From: Candidatus Woesearchaeota archaeon
GTDB lineage: Archaea; Nanobdellota; Nanobdellia; Woesearchaeales; GW2011-AR4
Length of the DNA: 59,682 nt
Direction of reading: 5' to 3'
NCBI GenBank assembly: GCA_016180235.1
Contig: JACPBQ010000007.1
Span: 1 to 59,682 of the forward strand
Below the pieces are notes generated by a model. It made no database searches and was not told the origin of the DNA. It saw only the letters and a program-made list of their open reading frames with translations. Positions within the stretch are counted from its first letter, which is position 1. Every line of letters begins with the position of its first letter. The position numbers and the translations under genes are program-made. This document shows, one piece after another, positions 11,000-23,744 of this stretch.

Positions 11000-12802
11000 C
11001 TAATACTTATTCTCCAATTGCAGCTTTGGATATATCCCCAATGACTTGAACTCATCAAGTATCAGTTTGAATGCATAGCTTATCTCAACATCATTTATCT
11101 CGACATTCTCCCCGCATATTGGGCAGTAGCTCTTTCCCTTGTAATCATCTTTAATTGCAATCGTGCCGCAGCTCTCGCATACTGGCACAATCGTCTTGTC
11201 TGAGTCAAACCTTTCTTTCAGCAATAATGAAGCCCCATGGGCTACAAACGTGTCTTTTTCCATCTCTCCCAGTCTCAGGCCTCCTTCTTTTGCCCTTCCC
11301 TCTGTTGGCTGTCTTGTAAGCAGCTGTATCGGGCCTCTTGCCCTCGAATGTATCTTGTTAGCTACCAGGTGCTTCAATTTCAGGTAATACATGTTTCCCA
11401 CAAATATTTTTGCATCCAGCATCTCTCCTGTTATGCCGTTGTAGAAAGTCTCCACTCCATTTTCCCTGAAGCCCATGCTCTTTAGCTCTTCCCTTAGTTT
11501 TTCCTCGGGCTCTGCATCAAATGTTGTCCCGTTGATGTACCTTCCAGATAAAGCCCCGACTTTTCCCGCGAGCATCTCTATCAGATGGCTTATGGTCATT
11601 CTTGACGGGATTCCGTGCGGCGAGAAAATAAGGTCAGGGACTATTCCTGATTCGGAGAAAGGCATGTCGCCTTCCGGGACAATCAGGCCAACCACGCCTT
11701 TCTGGCCATGGCGTGAAGTAAACTTATCCCCTACTTCCGGAACTCTTTCATCCCTTAATCTTACCTGCACGAGCCTGTTTCCTTCCTCGTTTTCCGTCAA
11801 TAATACAAAATCAACAATTCCTCTTTCCCCGTGCTTCAGGCTTACAGAGCTTTCCCTTCTTGTTCCTGCAGTTAAATTATACTCTTCCAGCGAGCTTAAG
11901 AACCTTGGAGGGCTTGTCTTGCCTATGACTACATCTCCTTCAGCAACCTGCGCCTCAGCATAAATTATGCCGTCATCTTCCAAAAACCTGTAGTCGCGCT
12001 CGCTCTTATAGCCTTTTACATCCTTGTCGGGTATGCTTACCTGGTCTATCAGGCCGCCGGAGTACCTTAGCTCCTCTGCTATGCTTGGCCTGTAATATGT
12101 AGAGCGTCCGAGACCTCTCTCTATAGAAGCCCTGTTGAGTATGATTGCATCCTCCATGTTATATCCCTTGTAGCTCATTACCGCTACAATGATGTTCTGC
12201 CCTGCTGGATGCTTGTCGTAATGGCTCATGTCATGCATTATTGTTTTTACCACAGGAACATGCGGGTAGTGCAATAAATTTACATCCATGTCCATCCTTA
12301 CTGCAAGGTTGGCTGCATACAATCCCAATGACTGCTTCTGGTTCTTGCTTCCTGCATTCAGCCTTGTTGACTGGTTGTAGTTCCCGTATGGGACCAAAGA
12401 AGTTGTAAGGCCGAACATCGCCATCGGCGTGATTTCAAGATGAGTATGCTCCGGTGTAAGGTCGCTTTCAAAGAATGCTACAAGAGTATTTTCCTCCTCT
12501 GCCGCATCAAGGTATTCAATTACTCCCTGTTTTACCAGGTCGCTCCATGAGATCTCATTCTTTTCCAGCTGCTTTATGTGTTTTTCCGTCAGCAGGGGCC
12601 TTCCGTCCCTCACAATTATCAGGGGCCTTCTTGCCCTTCCTTTTGAAGTCTCGACGTGTATCTCATTGGATTTGACGTTATAATATACGTTAAGGTTGTC
12701 TGTTACGCTTCCCGTCCTTCTTTCTTCCCTTATCCTGCTCACAAAACTATTAGGATCTTCAGCGGTACCGACAAATTTGCTGTTGTAGTATACTTCTGCC
12801 AT
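11000..12802 (-). CDS. rpoB1: DNA-directed RNA polymerase subunit B'
   Basis: 600 residues. C-terminal half of the second largest subunit, split as in many archaea. Motifs seen include YNMEDAIILNRASIERGLGR, the RHGQKGVVGLIV segment close to the active site, FSPHGIPSRMTI, and HARARGPIQLLTRQPTEGR-type sequence (here HSRARGPIQLLTRQPTEGR). A C-terminal zinc ribbon has CESCG...CPICGE. It begins 20 nt after rpoB'' ends, in the same transcript. A 324 nt gap follows before rpoA', where most archaea have none or very little. Confidence 0.97.
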   Translation of the reverse strand: MAEVYYNSKFVGTAEDPNSFVSRIREERRTGSVTDNLNVYYNVKSNEIHVETSKGRARRPLIIVRDGRPLLTEKHIKQLEKNEISWSDLVKQGVIEYLDAAEEENTLVAFFESDLTPEHTHLEITPMAMFGLTTSLVPYGNYNQSTRLNAGSKNQKQSLGLYAANLAVRMDMDVNLLHYPHVPVVKTIMHDMSHYDKHPAGQNIIVAVMSYKGYNMEDAIILNRASIERGLGRSTYYRPSIAEELRYSGGLIDQVSIPDKDVKGYKSERDYRFLEDDGIIYAEAQVAEGDVVIGKTSPPRFLSSLEEYNLTAGTRRESSVSLKHGERGIVDFVLLTENEEGNRLVQVRLRDERVPEVGDKFTSRHGQKGVVGLIVPEGDMPFSESGIVPDLIFSPHGIPSRMTISHLIEMLAGKVGALSGRYINGTTFDAEPEEKLREELKSMGFRENGVETFYNGITGEMLDAKIFVGNMYYLKLKHLVANKIHSRARGPIQLLTRQPTEGRAKEGGLRLGEMEKDTFVAHGASLLLKERFDSDKTIVPVCESCGTIAIKDDYKGKSYCPICGENVEINDVEISYAFKLILDEFKSLGIYPKLQLENKY

Positions 12803-12822: not shown

Positions 12823-14310
12823 CTATTTAACAGCCTTTAACCCAAAATTTTTAAGCTGCTTTAATGTCTCATTCTCGTCTGAACCCTGGGAAATAGAGCA
12901 CAGCAGGGCAAGGTTTTTTCTCAGTCCGATGTTCGTGCCTTCAGGGGTCTCTATGGGGCATAATCTTCCAAGATGAGTTGAATGCAGTTCGCGGGCTTCA
13001 AAATTTTCCTGGCTTGCAGATAGAGGGCTTACTACACGCTGCAAATGCGACAGCGTTTCCAGGTAGTTGAGCCTCTGGATTCTCTGGCTTATCCCTTTCC
13101 TCCCGCTGACCCATGTTCCTGTTGCCATTGATGAATATATCCTCTGCGTAAGCAGCTTGTCCCTTATTATCACTTTTATTGACGGAAACTTGCCGCGCTT
13201 GACAATCCTCTGGAAATTATACAATAAGTCTCCGATCAGAACCTTGAGATTGAGCCTGAGCAAATCAGCCAGTAAATCCCCGGCAAGCTTAAGCCTCTTG
13301 TTCATGTAATGGTCCTTGTCATCGGTGTTAAGGTCTCCTCTCGAGACCATTATGAATTTCTTGATCATCTTGCACAGGTTATAGGCCTTGAATATCCTAT
13401 CCTCTTTTTTTATGCCGATATGCGGCATGAGGTATTTGTCAAGTATCTCCCCCATCCTTTCAAGCCTTACTTCCTTTGACTGCGTTATTCCGACTTTTTT
13501 TGCGATGTAGTCTACAGCTTCCTCCTCGGTCTTGATGCTTGCGAATTCAATGAGGTTAAGGATTACTTCGTCATACTGCTTGTCGTCTGAGATGTACCTT
13601 GTTATCTCCTCGTCCTTGAGCATGCCAAGGGCTTTTATAAGGACCAATGCAGGTATCCTTTTTACCCTTGTGAAAGTGATGTAGAACAAACCGTCTTTTA
13701 GCTTTTCCATCGTATGCGGGATCTTGAATGAGCCGAACTCTGAAAACAGCTTGCCGACAAACGGCGATGTGCCTGTGGCATCTTCCTCAACCAAAAACTT
13801 GTTTGATGCAAGGTCCTCTATTGTTATAAGGACTTTTTCGGTACCGTTGATTATGAAATATCCTCCGGGCTCGTCAGGATCCTCCCCGTTTTCTATCAGC
13901 TCATTCCTGTTCATGTTGTGCAGGTGGCACCACTTGCTCTTGAGCATTATGGGTATGTTCCCGACCTGGGTAACAAAGCTTTCCCTCTGCACTCCATTTA
14001 TATGGGCGCTCACTTCAATGAAGGTAGGGGCAGAATAAGTCAGTTTCCTCAGCCTGGCTTCCATCGGGAAAATATTCCTTTTGCTGCCGTCAGCCTCTGT
14101 TATTTCCGGCTTTACAGACCATATTTTGTCCAGTTTGATCCTGAAATCATCGATGTTATGCGGTATTATTGTAGGAACAATCTCCTTGTTTTCTTCCAGT
14201 ATGACATTCAGCTCCTTGTCCATGAACTGGTTGAAAGACTCTATGTCTGAGTCTACAAAACTCTGCTCGGCAAAATATTTCTGCATCAGGATTTTTCCGT
14301 ATTTATACAT
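12823..14310 (-). CDS. rpoB2: DNA-directed RNA polymerase subunit B''
   Basis: 495 residues. N-terminal half of the second largest subunit: protrusion, lobe and fork regions. Recognised from GYFIINGTEKVLI (about 145-160), the RDKLLTQRIYSSMATGTW region and the fork sequence RELHSTHLGRLCPIETPEGTNIGLRKNLAL near the end. Its ATG at 14310 overlaps the last codons of rpoH (stop at 14303), so translation is coupled. The H-B''-B' order is the archaeal standard. Confidence 0.97.
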   Translation of the reverse strand: MYKYGKILMQKYFAEQSFVDSDIESFNQFMDKELNVILEENKEIVPTIIPHNIDDFRIKLDKIWSVKPEITEADGSKRNIFPMEARLRKLTYSAPTFIEVSAHINGVQRESFVTQVGNIPIMLKSKWCHLHNMNRNELIENGEDPDEPGGYFIINGTEKVLITIEDLASNKFLVEEDATGTSPFVGKLFSEFGSFKIPHTMEKLKDGLFYITFTRVKRIPALVLIKALGMLKDEEITRYISDDKQYDEVILNLIEFASIKTEEEAVDYIAKKVGITQSKEVRLERMGEILDKYLMPHIGIKKEDRIFKAYNLCKMIKKFIMVSRGDLNTDDKDHYMNKRLKLAGDLLADLLRLNLKVLIGDLLYNFQRIVKRGKFPSIKVIIRDKLLTQRIYSSMATGTWVSGRKGISQRIQRLNYLETLSHLQRVVSPLSASQENFEARELHSTHLGRLCPIETPEGTNIGLRKNLALLCSISQGSDENETLKQLKNFGLKAVK

Positions 14311-14579: not shown

Positions 14580-14728
14580 TGGGCCGGACGAGACTCCCAA
14601 ATCCAGAGGACTTGTGATATCCCTCTGGGATATTCGGACTCGCGACCTCCTGATTACCTTCCCTTAGGTTTTGAAAACCCTTGGTTTTGATAAAAGTCAG
14701 GCGCTCTACCAGGCTGAGCTACCGGCCC
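14580..14728 (-). tRNA. tRNA-Lys(TTT) with anticodon-loop and T-loop introns
   Basis: Acceptor GGGCCGG/CCGGCCC, D-stem GCTC/GAGC, anticodon stem CCTGA/TCAGG and T-stem GCGAG/CTCGT are complete. Intron 1 (14690-14655, 36 nt) is at 37/38: 3-nt bulges TAT and TAA flank the 4-bp helix CTTT/AAGG, and splicing gives the loop CTTTTAA. Intron 2 (14632-14594, 39 nt) sits in the T-loop at 59/60: bulges AAT and AGT flank helix TCCG/TGGG, with an intron hairpin ATCCCAGAGG/CCTCTGGAT. Splicing restores the loop TCCGAAT. The mature tRNA would be 74 nt. Boundaries are deduced by eye. Confidence 0.88.
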
Positions 14729-14750: not shown

Positions 14751-14940
14751 CGCCCTGGCCGGGACTTCCAGCAAACTTTTCCATCGTTCCGTGAGGTTGC
14801 AGACCTCACATTGCATGCATTTTTAGCGAATTTTTGGAAAAAATTCGTTTTGAACCCGGGTCGAAGCCGTGACAGGGCTTCATGATAGTTTCTGCAGCAT
14901 TTTAATCCTAAAATGCTGAGCCAGGCTACACTACCAGGGC
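14751..14940 (-). tRNA. tRNA-Asp(GTC) with D-loop and T-loop introns
   Basis: Acceptor GCCCTGG/CCAGGGC with discriminator G, anticodon stem AAGCC/GGCTT, loop CTGTCAC (anticodon GTC), T-stem CCGGG/CCCGG. The D-loop is interrupted by about 31 nt (14919-14889) holding a 10-bp hairpin CAGCATTTTA/TAAAATGCTG; removal gives a D-loop ending GGCCTATCAT. The T-loop is interrupted by 84 nt (14848-14765): bulges AAA and AGT flank helix TTCA/TGGA, and splicing gives TTCAAAT. No anticodon-loop intron. Mature length would be 74-75 nt. It lies directly upstream of tRNA-Lys on the same strand. Confidence 0.87.
14765..14848 (-). ncRNA. Structured T-loop intron of tRNA-Asp
   Basis: 84 nt. Order: hairpin CGAATTTTT/AAAAATTCG; A-rich joint then ATGCAATG; helix GTGAGGT/ACCTCAC; then CGGAACGATGGAAAAG and TTTGCTGGAAG. 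ATGCAATG and CGGAACGATGGAAAAG are identical in the T-loop intron of tRNA-Pro(GGG), while both helices differ in sequence but still pair. It is either a related mobile intron or an RNA with a function after excision. Confidence 0.7.
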
Positions 14941-17845: not shown

Positions 17846-18048
17846 TGGGGCTGCGAGGACTTTCGCCAACCTTTTCCATCGTTCCGCGGAATTGAGCAGT
17901 GCGAAATTCCGCATTGCATTCTTTTTCCCCGGGCTTTTTTGAAAAAGGCCGTTTCGAACCCCGATTGCTACCACTCTGTAAGCTCCCTTACTGCAGGAGT
18001 TGAGGCTTTCCCCAAGGTAGAGTGATAGCCAAGTTACACTACAGCCCC
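17846..18048 (-). tRNA. tRNA-Pro(GGG) with anticodon-loop and T-loop introns
   Basis: Acceptor GGGGCTG/CAGCCCC, discriminator A, D-arm GTGTAACTTGGCTATCAC, anticodon stem CTACC/GGTAG, T-stem CGGGG/CCTCG. Intron 1 (18009-17974, 36 nt) follows the anticodon GGG and G37. Intron 2 (17952-17860, 93 nt) is in the T-loop at 59/60: bulges AAA and AGT flank the perfect helix TTCG/CGAA, and splicing yields the canonical loop TTCGAAT. Mature length would be 74 nt. A second tRNA-Pro with anticodon CGG is at 46245-46343. Confidence 0.88.
17860..17952 (-). ncRNA. Structured T-loop intron of tRNA-Pro(GGG)
   Basis: 93 nt with the same layout as the Asp intron: hairpin GGC(C)TTTTT/AAAAAGCC, A-rich joint and ATGCAATG, helix GCGGAATT/AATTCCGC with an 11-nt loop, then CGGAACGATGGAAAAG and GTTGGCGAAAG. 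The single-stranded blocks are conserved between the two introns while helix sequences change in a compensating way, which supports a common RNA fold. Confidence 0.7.
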
Positions 18049-23235: not shown

Positions 23236-23298
23236 TTATTTCTTCTTTTTTCTTCGCCTGTATTTTCGTAAGGTAAACATTTTAGAGAAATCAATCAT
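23236..23298 (-). CDS. Possible 20-residue basic peptide overlapping the toxin stop
   Basis: A 21-codon frame starting MIDFSKMFTLRKY and ending in a run of Arg/Lys. Its ATG overlaps the TGA of the RelE-like gene (TATGATTGA context). Stop-start overlaps are common between coupled genes here, but a frame this short also arises by chance. Weak call. Confidence 0.2.
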   Translation of the reverse strand: MIDFSKMFTLRKYRRRKKKK

Positions 23299-23557
23299 AG
23301 ACTCGTGAACGTTTATCTACCTTGGCTACAATGAGCCTATTCGGATTATATCTCACAATGTAAAGAATTCTTTGGTCGCCAACTCTGATTCTGAAAACTT
23401 TCTTACCTTCAAAATCTTCTACTCGCTCCACTTCTTGCGGAAAAGGATTTTCTTCAAGCTTGTTTATTTTTTCCTCGACTCTTTTCTTAGTTATAGCATC
23501 CAGCTTTTTAATGTACTTAGCAGCCTTGCTAGAGAACTCTGCCGGAAAATTAACCAT
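23291..23557 (-). CDS. RelE/ParE-family toxin
   Basis: 88 residues from the ATG at 23557. Typical RelE fold pattern: two N-terminal helices (FSSKAAKYIKKLDAITKKRVEEKINKL), then the beta sheet with GKKVFRIRVGDQRILYIVRY and a C-terminal AKVDKRSRVYD. The Arg residues in RIRVGDQR and RSRVYD match the positions used for mRNA cleavage in RelE toxins. It starts one base after the stop of its antitoxin, so the pair is one operon. An insertion within the rpoF-DUF655 neighbourhood. Confidence 0.85.
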   Translation of the reverse strand: MVNFPAEFSSKAAKYIKKLDAITKKRVEEKINKLEENPFPQEVERVEDFEGKKVFRIRVGDQRILYIVRYNPNRLIVAKVDKRSRVYD

Positions 23558-23558
23558 C

Positions 23559-23744
23559 TTACCCAAAGACTTGCTTTTTGCTTAGAAGTTTGCCTGCTTT
23601 TTCTTCATTTAAAGCTGTCTTAAGCGCTTTTTTATCGTCTTCACTTAATTTTGTGTTTTCAATGTAGTCCATTATATAATCGACTTTCTTTTCCACGTTT
23701 GCCAATTTGTTGAGTATCTGTTTTTCAAATGTTGTTTCACTCAT
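23559..23744 (-). CDS. Antitoxin partner of the RelE-like toxin
   Basis: 61 residues, acidic in the N-terminal part and helical throughout (MSETTFEKQILNKLANVEKK start). It precedes the RelE-like toxin with a single-base gap, the usual antitoxin-first order. No classical ribbon-helix-helix or AbrB fold is obvious, so the DNA-binding part, if any, is unclear. Assigned by position and size. Confidence 0.65.
   Translation of the reverse strand: MSETTFEKQILNKLANVEKKVDYIMDYIENTKLSEDDKKALKTALNEEKAGKLLSKKQVFG

Follow-up and report, generated by a model that had tools for sequence, protein, structure and literature searches.

Two T-loop introns of archaeal tRNA genes probably filled by copies of a short mobile hairpin repeat

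The T-loop introns of tRNA-Asp and tRNA-Pro in a stretch of 59,682 nucleotides from a Candidatus Woesearchaeota archaeon (contig JACPBQ010000007.1; the whole stretch is called the window here) share a structured RNA which is probably a copy of a short, non-coding, non-autonomous mobile repeat, occupying T-loop intron slots that existed before it. The features concerned are the following.

14580 to 14728, minus strand: tRNA-Lys(TTT) gene, read from the sequence, with an anticodon-loop intron and a T-loop intron (about 14594 to 14632, 39 nt)
14751 to 14940, minus strand: tRNA-Asp(GTC) gene, with a D-loop intron (about 14889 to 14919, 31 nt) and a T-loop intron
14765 to 14848, minus strand: predicted T-loop (59/60) BHB intron of tRNA-Asp(GTC), 84 nt, with a core-type repeat copy inside (match to RNA model R1 at 14771 to 14848, E 1e-11; T-arm fold)
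14776 to 14791, minus strand: conserved single strand CGGAACGATGGAAAAG, Asp copy
14827 to 14847, minus strand: P1 hairpin CGAATTTTTTCC/AAAAATTCG, Asp copy, the 5' strand of which can also pair with the intron 3' end (helix A)
17846 to 18048, minus strand: tRNA-Pro(TGG) gene, with an anticodon-loop intron and a T-loop intron
17860 to 17952, minus strand: predicted T-loop (59/60) BHB intron of tRNA-Pro(TGG), 93 nt, with a core-type repeat copy inside (R1 match at 17866 to 17952, E 3.5e-9; T-arm fold)
17871 to 17886, minus strand: conserved single strand CGGAACGATGGAAAAG, Pro copy

These three tRNA genes are those with T-loop introns in the window, all on the minus strand, and the shared structure is confined to the Asp and Pro introns, the 39-nt T-loop intron of tRNA-Lys, which lacks the repeat, being an internal control. 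The positions and lengths of the Asp and Pro introns given in a first-pass annotation of this DNA proved exact, as did the identity that it had reported for CGGAACGATGGAAAAG and ATGCAATG in both. The longest string common to the two introns has 16 nt, where none of 5000 mononucleotide shuffles exceeded 13, and the only exact matches of this 16-mer in the window's own genome (G000) are at these two sites. ARAGORN called no tRNA in the window, missing the Lys, Asp and Pro genes alike, presumably because of their multiple introns. Beside the tRNA cluster, RNA polymerase subunit B is apparently split into two ORFs (11000 to 12802 and 12823 to 14310, minus strand); elsewhere in the window a small ORF (23291 to 23566, minus strand) resembles a RelE/ParE-type toxin.

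On the folding predictions, splicing of the Asp and Pro introns is explained by ordinary BHB geometry. Taken in isolation, both T-arms with their intron have a BHB as the minimum-energy fold, with the T-stem as outer helix. In both, the exon TTCG or TTCA pairs immediately 5' of the 3' splice site, giving a 4-bp core (TTCA/TGGA in Asp, between two 3-nt bulges; TTCG/CGAA in Pro), the bulges being AAA and AGT, 3 nt each, with one extra nucleotide facing the 5' bulge. Excision in silico, read from the sequence, makes the T-loop canonical again, with TTCAAA joined to TCCC in Asp and TTCGAA to TCC in Pro. Helix A, formed by the 5' strand of P1 and the intron 3' end, is the inner helix of the BHB that has minimum energy in each T-arm alone and in the full-length Pro precursor, whereas the whole Asp precursor folds with P1 instead of that inner helix. 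Since the full Asp precursor prefers the local hairpin, P1 and helix A appear to compete for one 5' strand. A copy of the repeat would be tolerated in an intron through pairing of its 5' end (CAACCTTTT-like) with its 3' end (AAAAGGTTG-like), which supplies the BHB inner helix next to the exon TTCRAA; the splicing endonuclease (PF01974, of which G000 has one) would then cut at AA^A and AG^T, and an RNA ligase, which we take to be RtcB, would join the exons as TTCRAA to TCC. In other words, the Asp and Pro introns are, as modelled, BHB introns of the ordinary kind, and it is their filling that is unusual.

Copies in relatives were first found with the 16-mer, allowing one mismatch, and the model of the core, R1, was built from eight copies. 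Homologues in related genomes, on the existence of which the first-pass annotation had made its reading depend, are plentiful: R1 gives 33 matches in 16 of the 36 genomes of the family and, in the order beyond the family, matches only in two genomes (G144 and G200, that in G200 weak). Some candidates of the first pattern search (L005-L007, L009, L010 and L012) were rejected as one protein-coding gene, and L003 was set aside since it looks coding. The subfamily is built of a left-end P1 hairpin and a second domain, ATGCAATG-P2-CGGAACGAT. Covarying stems, proposed from two sequences, are borne out beyond them in 29 homologues, where the second helix, P2, reaches 99% pairing and shows double-sided changes in five of its seven pairs, and where covariation scores 0.384, compared with 0.135 +/- 0.017 for shuffled and at most 0.100 for slid controls, figures which favour the model in that the 29-copy alignment was fitted to it. 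Indeed, sliding the partners makes every pairing measure collapse in the 29 copies. The P1 hairpin is also present, its 5' strand being able to pair with the intron 3' end instead.

Strong covariation and near-invariant loops, together with a copy that two genomes (L023 and L027) have upstream of a histone gene, would suit an excised RNA selected for a guide or regulatory role, the option that the annotation had left beside mobility. There is, however, no positive evidence for such a role. The elements match none of the 4227 families of Rfam, permissive thresholds included, and hence no group I or II intron, C/D or H/ACA guide RNA or known ribozyme (matches to rRNA, tRNA and SRP RNA were seen as expected, and sR30 and tmRNA sub-threshold). 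Moreover, copies are found at the ends of genes and in antisense orientation to tRNAs, and their distribution is patchy even between sister species, with the core in only 11 of the 288 genomes of the order, such that a function of this kind is highly improbable. Inspection by eye for a kink-turn/L7Ae site found no tandem GA pairs.

What the relatives suggest is an old slot with a mobile filling, since the tRNA-Asp T-loop intron stands at one position in all 26 of the 26 genes recovered (a set in which the script located no 3' exon for G032), with unrelated contents, and since the T-loop introns of tRNA-Asp and tRNA-Pro in the sister species G001 are short, unrelated and without the repeat. In that species the Asp D-loop intron is conserved (25 of 31 positions identical), as is the Pro anticodon-loop intron; loss of the repeat in G001, instead of gain in G000, may be the explanation. 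Within the tRNA-Asp set the core is found in G000 and G014, and also at a separate G029 locus. Similar introns occupy different tRNA bodies, as in the Asp, Pro, Leu and probable Gln copies of two sister species; the probable tRNA-Gln of G001 carries a 22-nt hairpin, ACGAATTTTTTCCAAAAATTCG, identical to P1 of the G000 tRNA-Asp. From their flanks, core copies in T-loop introns belong to tRNA-Asp, Pro, Leu, a Glu-like and a probable Gln tRNA, and others lie in anticodon-loop (37/38) introns.

Outside introns, core copies stand antisense at tRNA 3' ends and beside protein genes: a NusG-like gene has one where it begins, an EMC3-like gene where it ends, and the histone gene in its upstream region. 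These gene names were read from translated flanks rather than obtained by a family search. In this regard, the annotation's other option, a mobile intron family with its own RNA determinant, holds in its conserved fold and its moving family, and finds no support in its intron-specific determinant: the fold also exists outside introns with target duplications, and the T-loop introns of the sister Asp and Pro genes and of tRNA-Lys in the window do without it. Direct repeats, variable in length from 11 to 40 nt, adjoin the left end of the element in 20 of 117 copies against 4 of 350 shuffled pairs, and in a larger, overlapping set in 23 of 177 copies against 6 of 699, though these counts are not all independent because the NusG and EMC3-like sites, which may be single old insertions, recur in several genomes. 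At the 3' end of the EMC3/DUF106-like gene the element sits with a 33-37-nt duplication in several genera (L069, which is G000 contig C9 position 330406, and L070, L073, L041 and L330), either as an insertion hotspot or as an old insertion that was kept. In several genomes (L026, L049, L090 and L255) the element is flanked by a duplicated start of the NusG/Spt5-like gene, each time at the same codon, which leaves a short upstream ORF. Intron copies begin exactly at the 5' splice site and have no long target duplication, which suggests replacement of whole introns and not random insertion.

The two kinds of copy also differ at their ends. In sets picked by hand, the own ends of 11 intron copies pair at -11.9 kcal/mol, against -7.3 kcal/mol across copies (permutation p 1e-4), whereas the own ends of 11 gene-edge copies are no better matched than those across copies (p 0.19); likewise, a check for terminal inverted repeats found ends of the CAACCTTTT/AAAAGGTTG type pairing in intron copies only. 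Absence of the pairing from edge copies is consistent with its serving splicing, and the simplest reading is that selection for a BHB in introns, and none elsewhere, accounts for it.

An alternative is mobility at the RNA level, whereby the excised intron would reverse-splice into RNAs able to form a BHB with its 3' end, to be copied by a reverse transcriptase into DNA and recombined into the genome, T-loop introns going to T-loops and D-loop introns to D-loops. The same module does occur at matching positions of different tRNAs, and at a 16S rRNA site with a matching 4-bp core, TTAG/CTAA; the introns have precise boundaries and 3' ends complementary to the 5' exon. The gene-edge copies, with their long direct repeats, their lack of the intron 3' end and their often antisense orientation, are nonetheless not what precise reverse splicing would be expected to leave, and RVT_1, present in 5 of 36 genomes and absent from G000, G001 and the element-rich G012, is too rare for a reverse transcriptase to be the mover. 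RNA-level mobility is in consequence an unlikely route, and the target repeats favour movement of DNA over that of RNA. If the two introns indeed hold copies of a non-autonomous mobile repeat, these would have been moved as DNA by an enzyme acting in trans and making staggered breaks, which is the weakest step of the proposed mechanism. Two observations count against it, namely that the direct repeats vary from 11 to 40 nt, unlike those of most transposases, and that no transposase or other gene or ORF recurs beside the module in the neighbourhoods scanned.

Among candidate enzymes, the Y1 transposase was rejected for its patchy distribution (18 of 36 genomes, absent from several element-bearing ones). 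LAGLIDADG endonucleases leave 4-nt overhangs. They could break tRNA and conserved genes, with repair from other introns spreading the element by homing or ectopic gene conversion, and LAGLIDADG_3 is indeed found in 33 of the 36 genomes, up to 17 per genome, with one such gene immediately 5' of the element-bearing tRNA-Gln in G014 and G028 (L043:1748-2443, minus strand, and L154:586-1329, plus strand). Many of the matches, however, lie in open frames of more than 800 aa and are probably inteins, the elements themselves showed no LAGLIDADG ORF, and such overhangs would not be expected to give duplications of 11-40 nt; this origin is accordingly quite improbable, and none of the three enzymes is convincing as the mover. 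As to vehicles, the sole inverted pair of modules about 1 kb apart (G034 contig C14) encloses host genes and was rejected as an autonomous copy. Matches to the core pattern inside phage sequence lack the flanking hairpin, are apparently coding and were put down to chance, so a viral vector was likewise rejected; the module gave one match in viral contigs, and plasmid and phage collections held nothing convincing for the element.

The left hairpin, CAACCTTTT-loop-AAAAGCTTGACCAAAA, occurs at many more sites without the core, 16S rRNA included. With at most one mismatch it gives about 132 matches in the 36 genomes, against about 7 for a reversed control, and the exact 16-mer AAAAGCTTGACCAAAA gives 91 against 0 in 371 genomes of the window's phylum. 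In GTDB genomes, the matches listed are mostly archaeal records, among them Woesearchaeota, Diapherotrites, Parvarchaeota, Aenigmatarchaeota, Methanosarcinales, Methanocellales, Methanophagales, Methanomethylicales and others, with few bacterial ones, some of which may be contamination. Of 187 modules, 35 have a sense T-arm motif nearby, compared with 4 of 187 random places; in the 16S rRNA gene (L046 and L112) the module stands near a GGATTAGATAC site, fitting the TTAG/CTAA core, and the Methanophagales copies are antisense to an apparent 23S rRNA, identified by eye. The shortest intron seen, CAACCTTTTTGCAAGCAAAAAGCTTGACCAAAAAGGTTGG (L215, in a tRNA-Leu D-loop), has one U-rich strand opposite two rival A-rich ones. 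One Methanosarcina genome has three tandem module copies (L224). A second palindromic repeat, of CGAGTGAGCTCG type with AAGTCAC ends, is nested in element hairpins and also found inside another T-loop intron (L021, L038, L045, L094 and L317). As a tentative extension, with the odds rather against it, the module might represent a multi-phylum archaeal family of mobile hairpins, erased from tRNA and rRNA transcripts by the host splicing endonuclease, moving in a manner still to be described (through RNA, or by an unknown integrase making 11-40-nt duplications) and forming a main source of intron turnover in archaeal tRNA and rRNA.

As far as the tools used can tell, the element is new, having neither an Rfam family nor a description in the open literature searched, the coverage of which is incomplete, so that absence is not proof. 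Intron gain in archaeal tRNA genes is an open question, and transposition in Thermoproteales has been inferred without a known vehicle. Here, a defined, searchable vehicle is at hand: its copies at gene edges are flanked by target repeats, a sister species has the orthologous slots without it, and its two rival pairings differ according to whether or not a copy lies in an intron. The question of intron gain in archaea becomes a testable one, of one element and one missing enzyme, and the hairpin repeat offers a concrete route by which archaeal tRNA introns could gain and swap content.

Archaeal BHB tRNA introns are known at 59/60 and other non-canonical positions (PMC4090602), and are like those described here in position, in a 4-bp core with 3-nt bulges and in having several introns per tRNA; the difference is that the filling here is a repeat which also lives outside introns. 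Transposition of tRNA introns in Thermoproteales (Fujishima et al. 2010, as reported in PMC4090602) was seen as near-identical introns in different tRNAs, a likeness shared with the present copies; relative to that report, these belong to another phylum, form a defined structured module, have non-intron copies with target duplications and extend to 16S rRNA and 23S rRNA sequence. In Caldiarchaeum, a model of tRNA disruption by an integrative element (PMC3293823) likewise has a mobile element creating introns, one which at 1.8 kb and with a predicted recombinase gene differs from the present repeat. The MITEs, PATEs and SMR of Haloquadratum (PMC3119063) are, together with the Thermoproteales introns, the closest kinds, and resemble the repeat in being about 100 bp, without a gene, with inverted ends or hairpins, and in having one repeat nested in another's hairpin. 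Like a MITE, the element is short, non-coding and dispersed, but its target duplication, variable from 11 to 40 nt, is not of the fixed length of MITEs, and its presence sets the element apart from the IS200/IS605-related PATEs and from A-type SMRs, which make none. Unlike these Haloquadratum repeats, copies of the present repeat would, on the predicted folds, also serve as spliceable introns.
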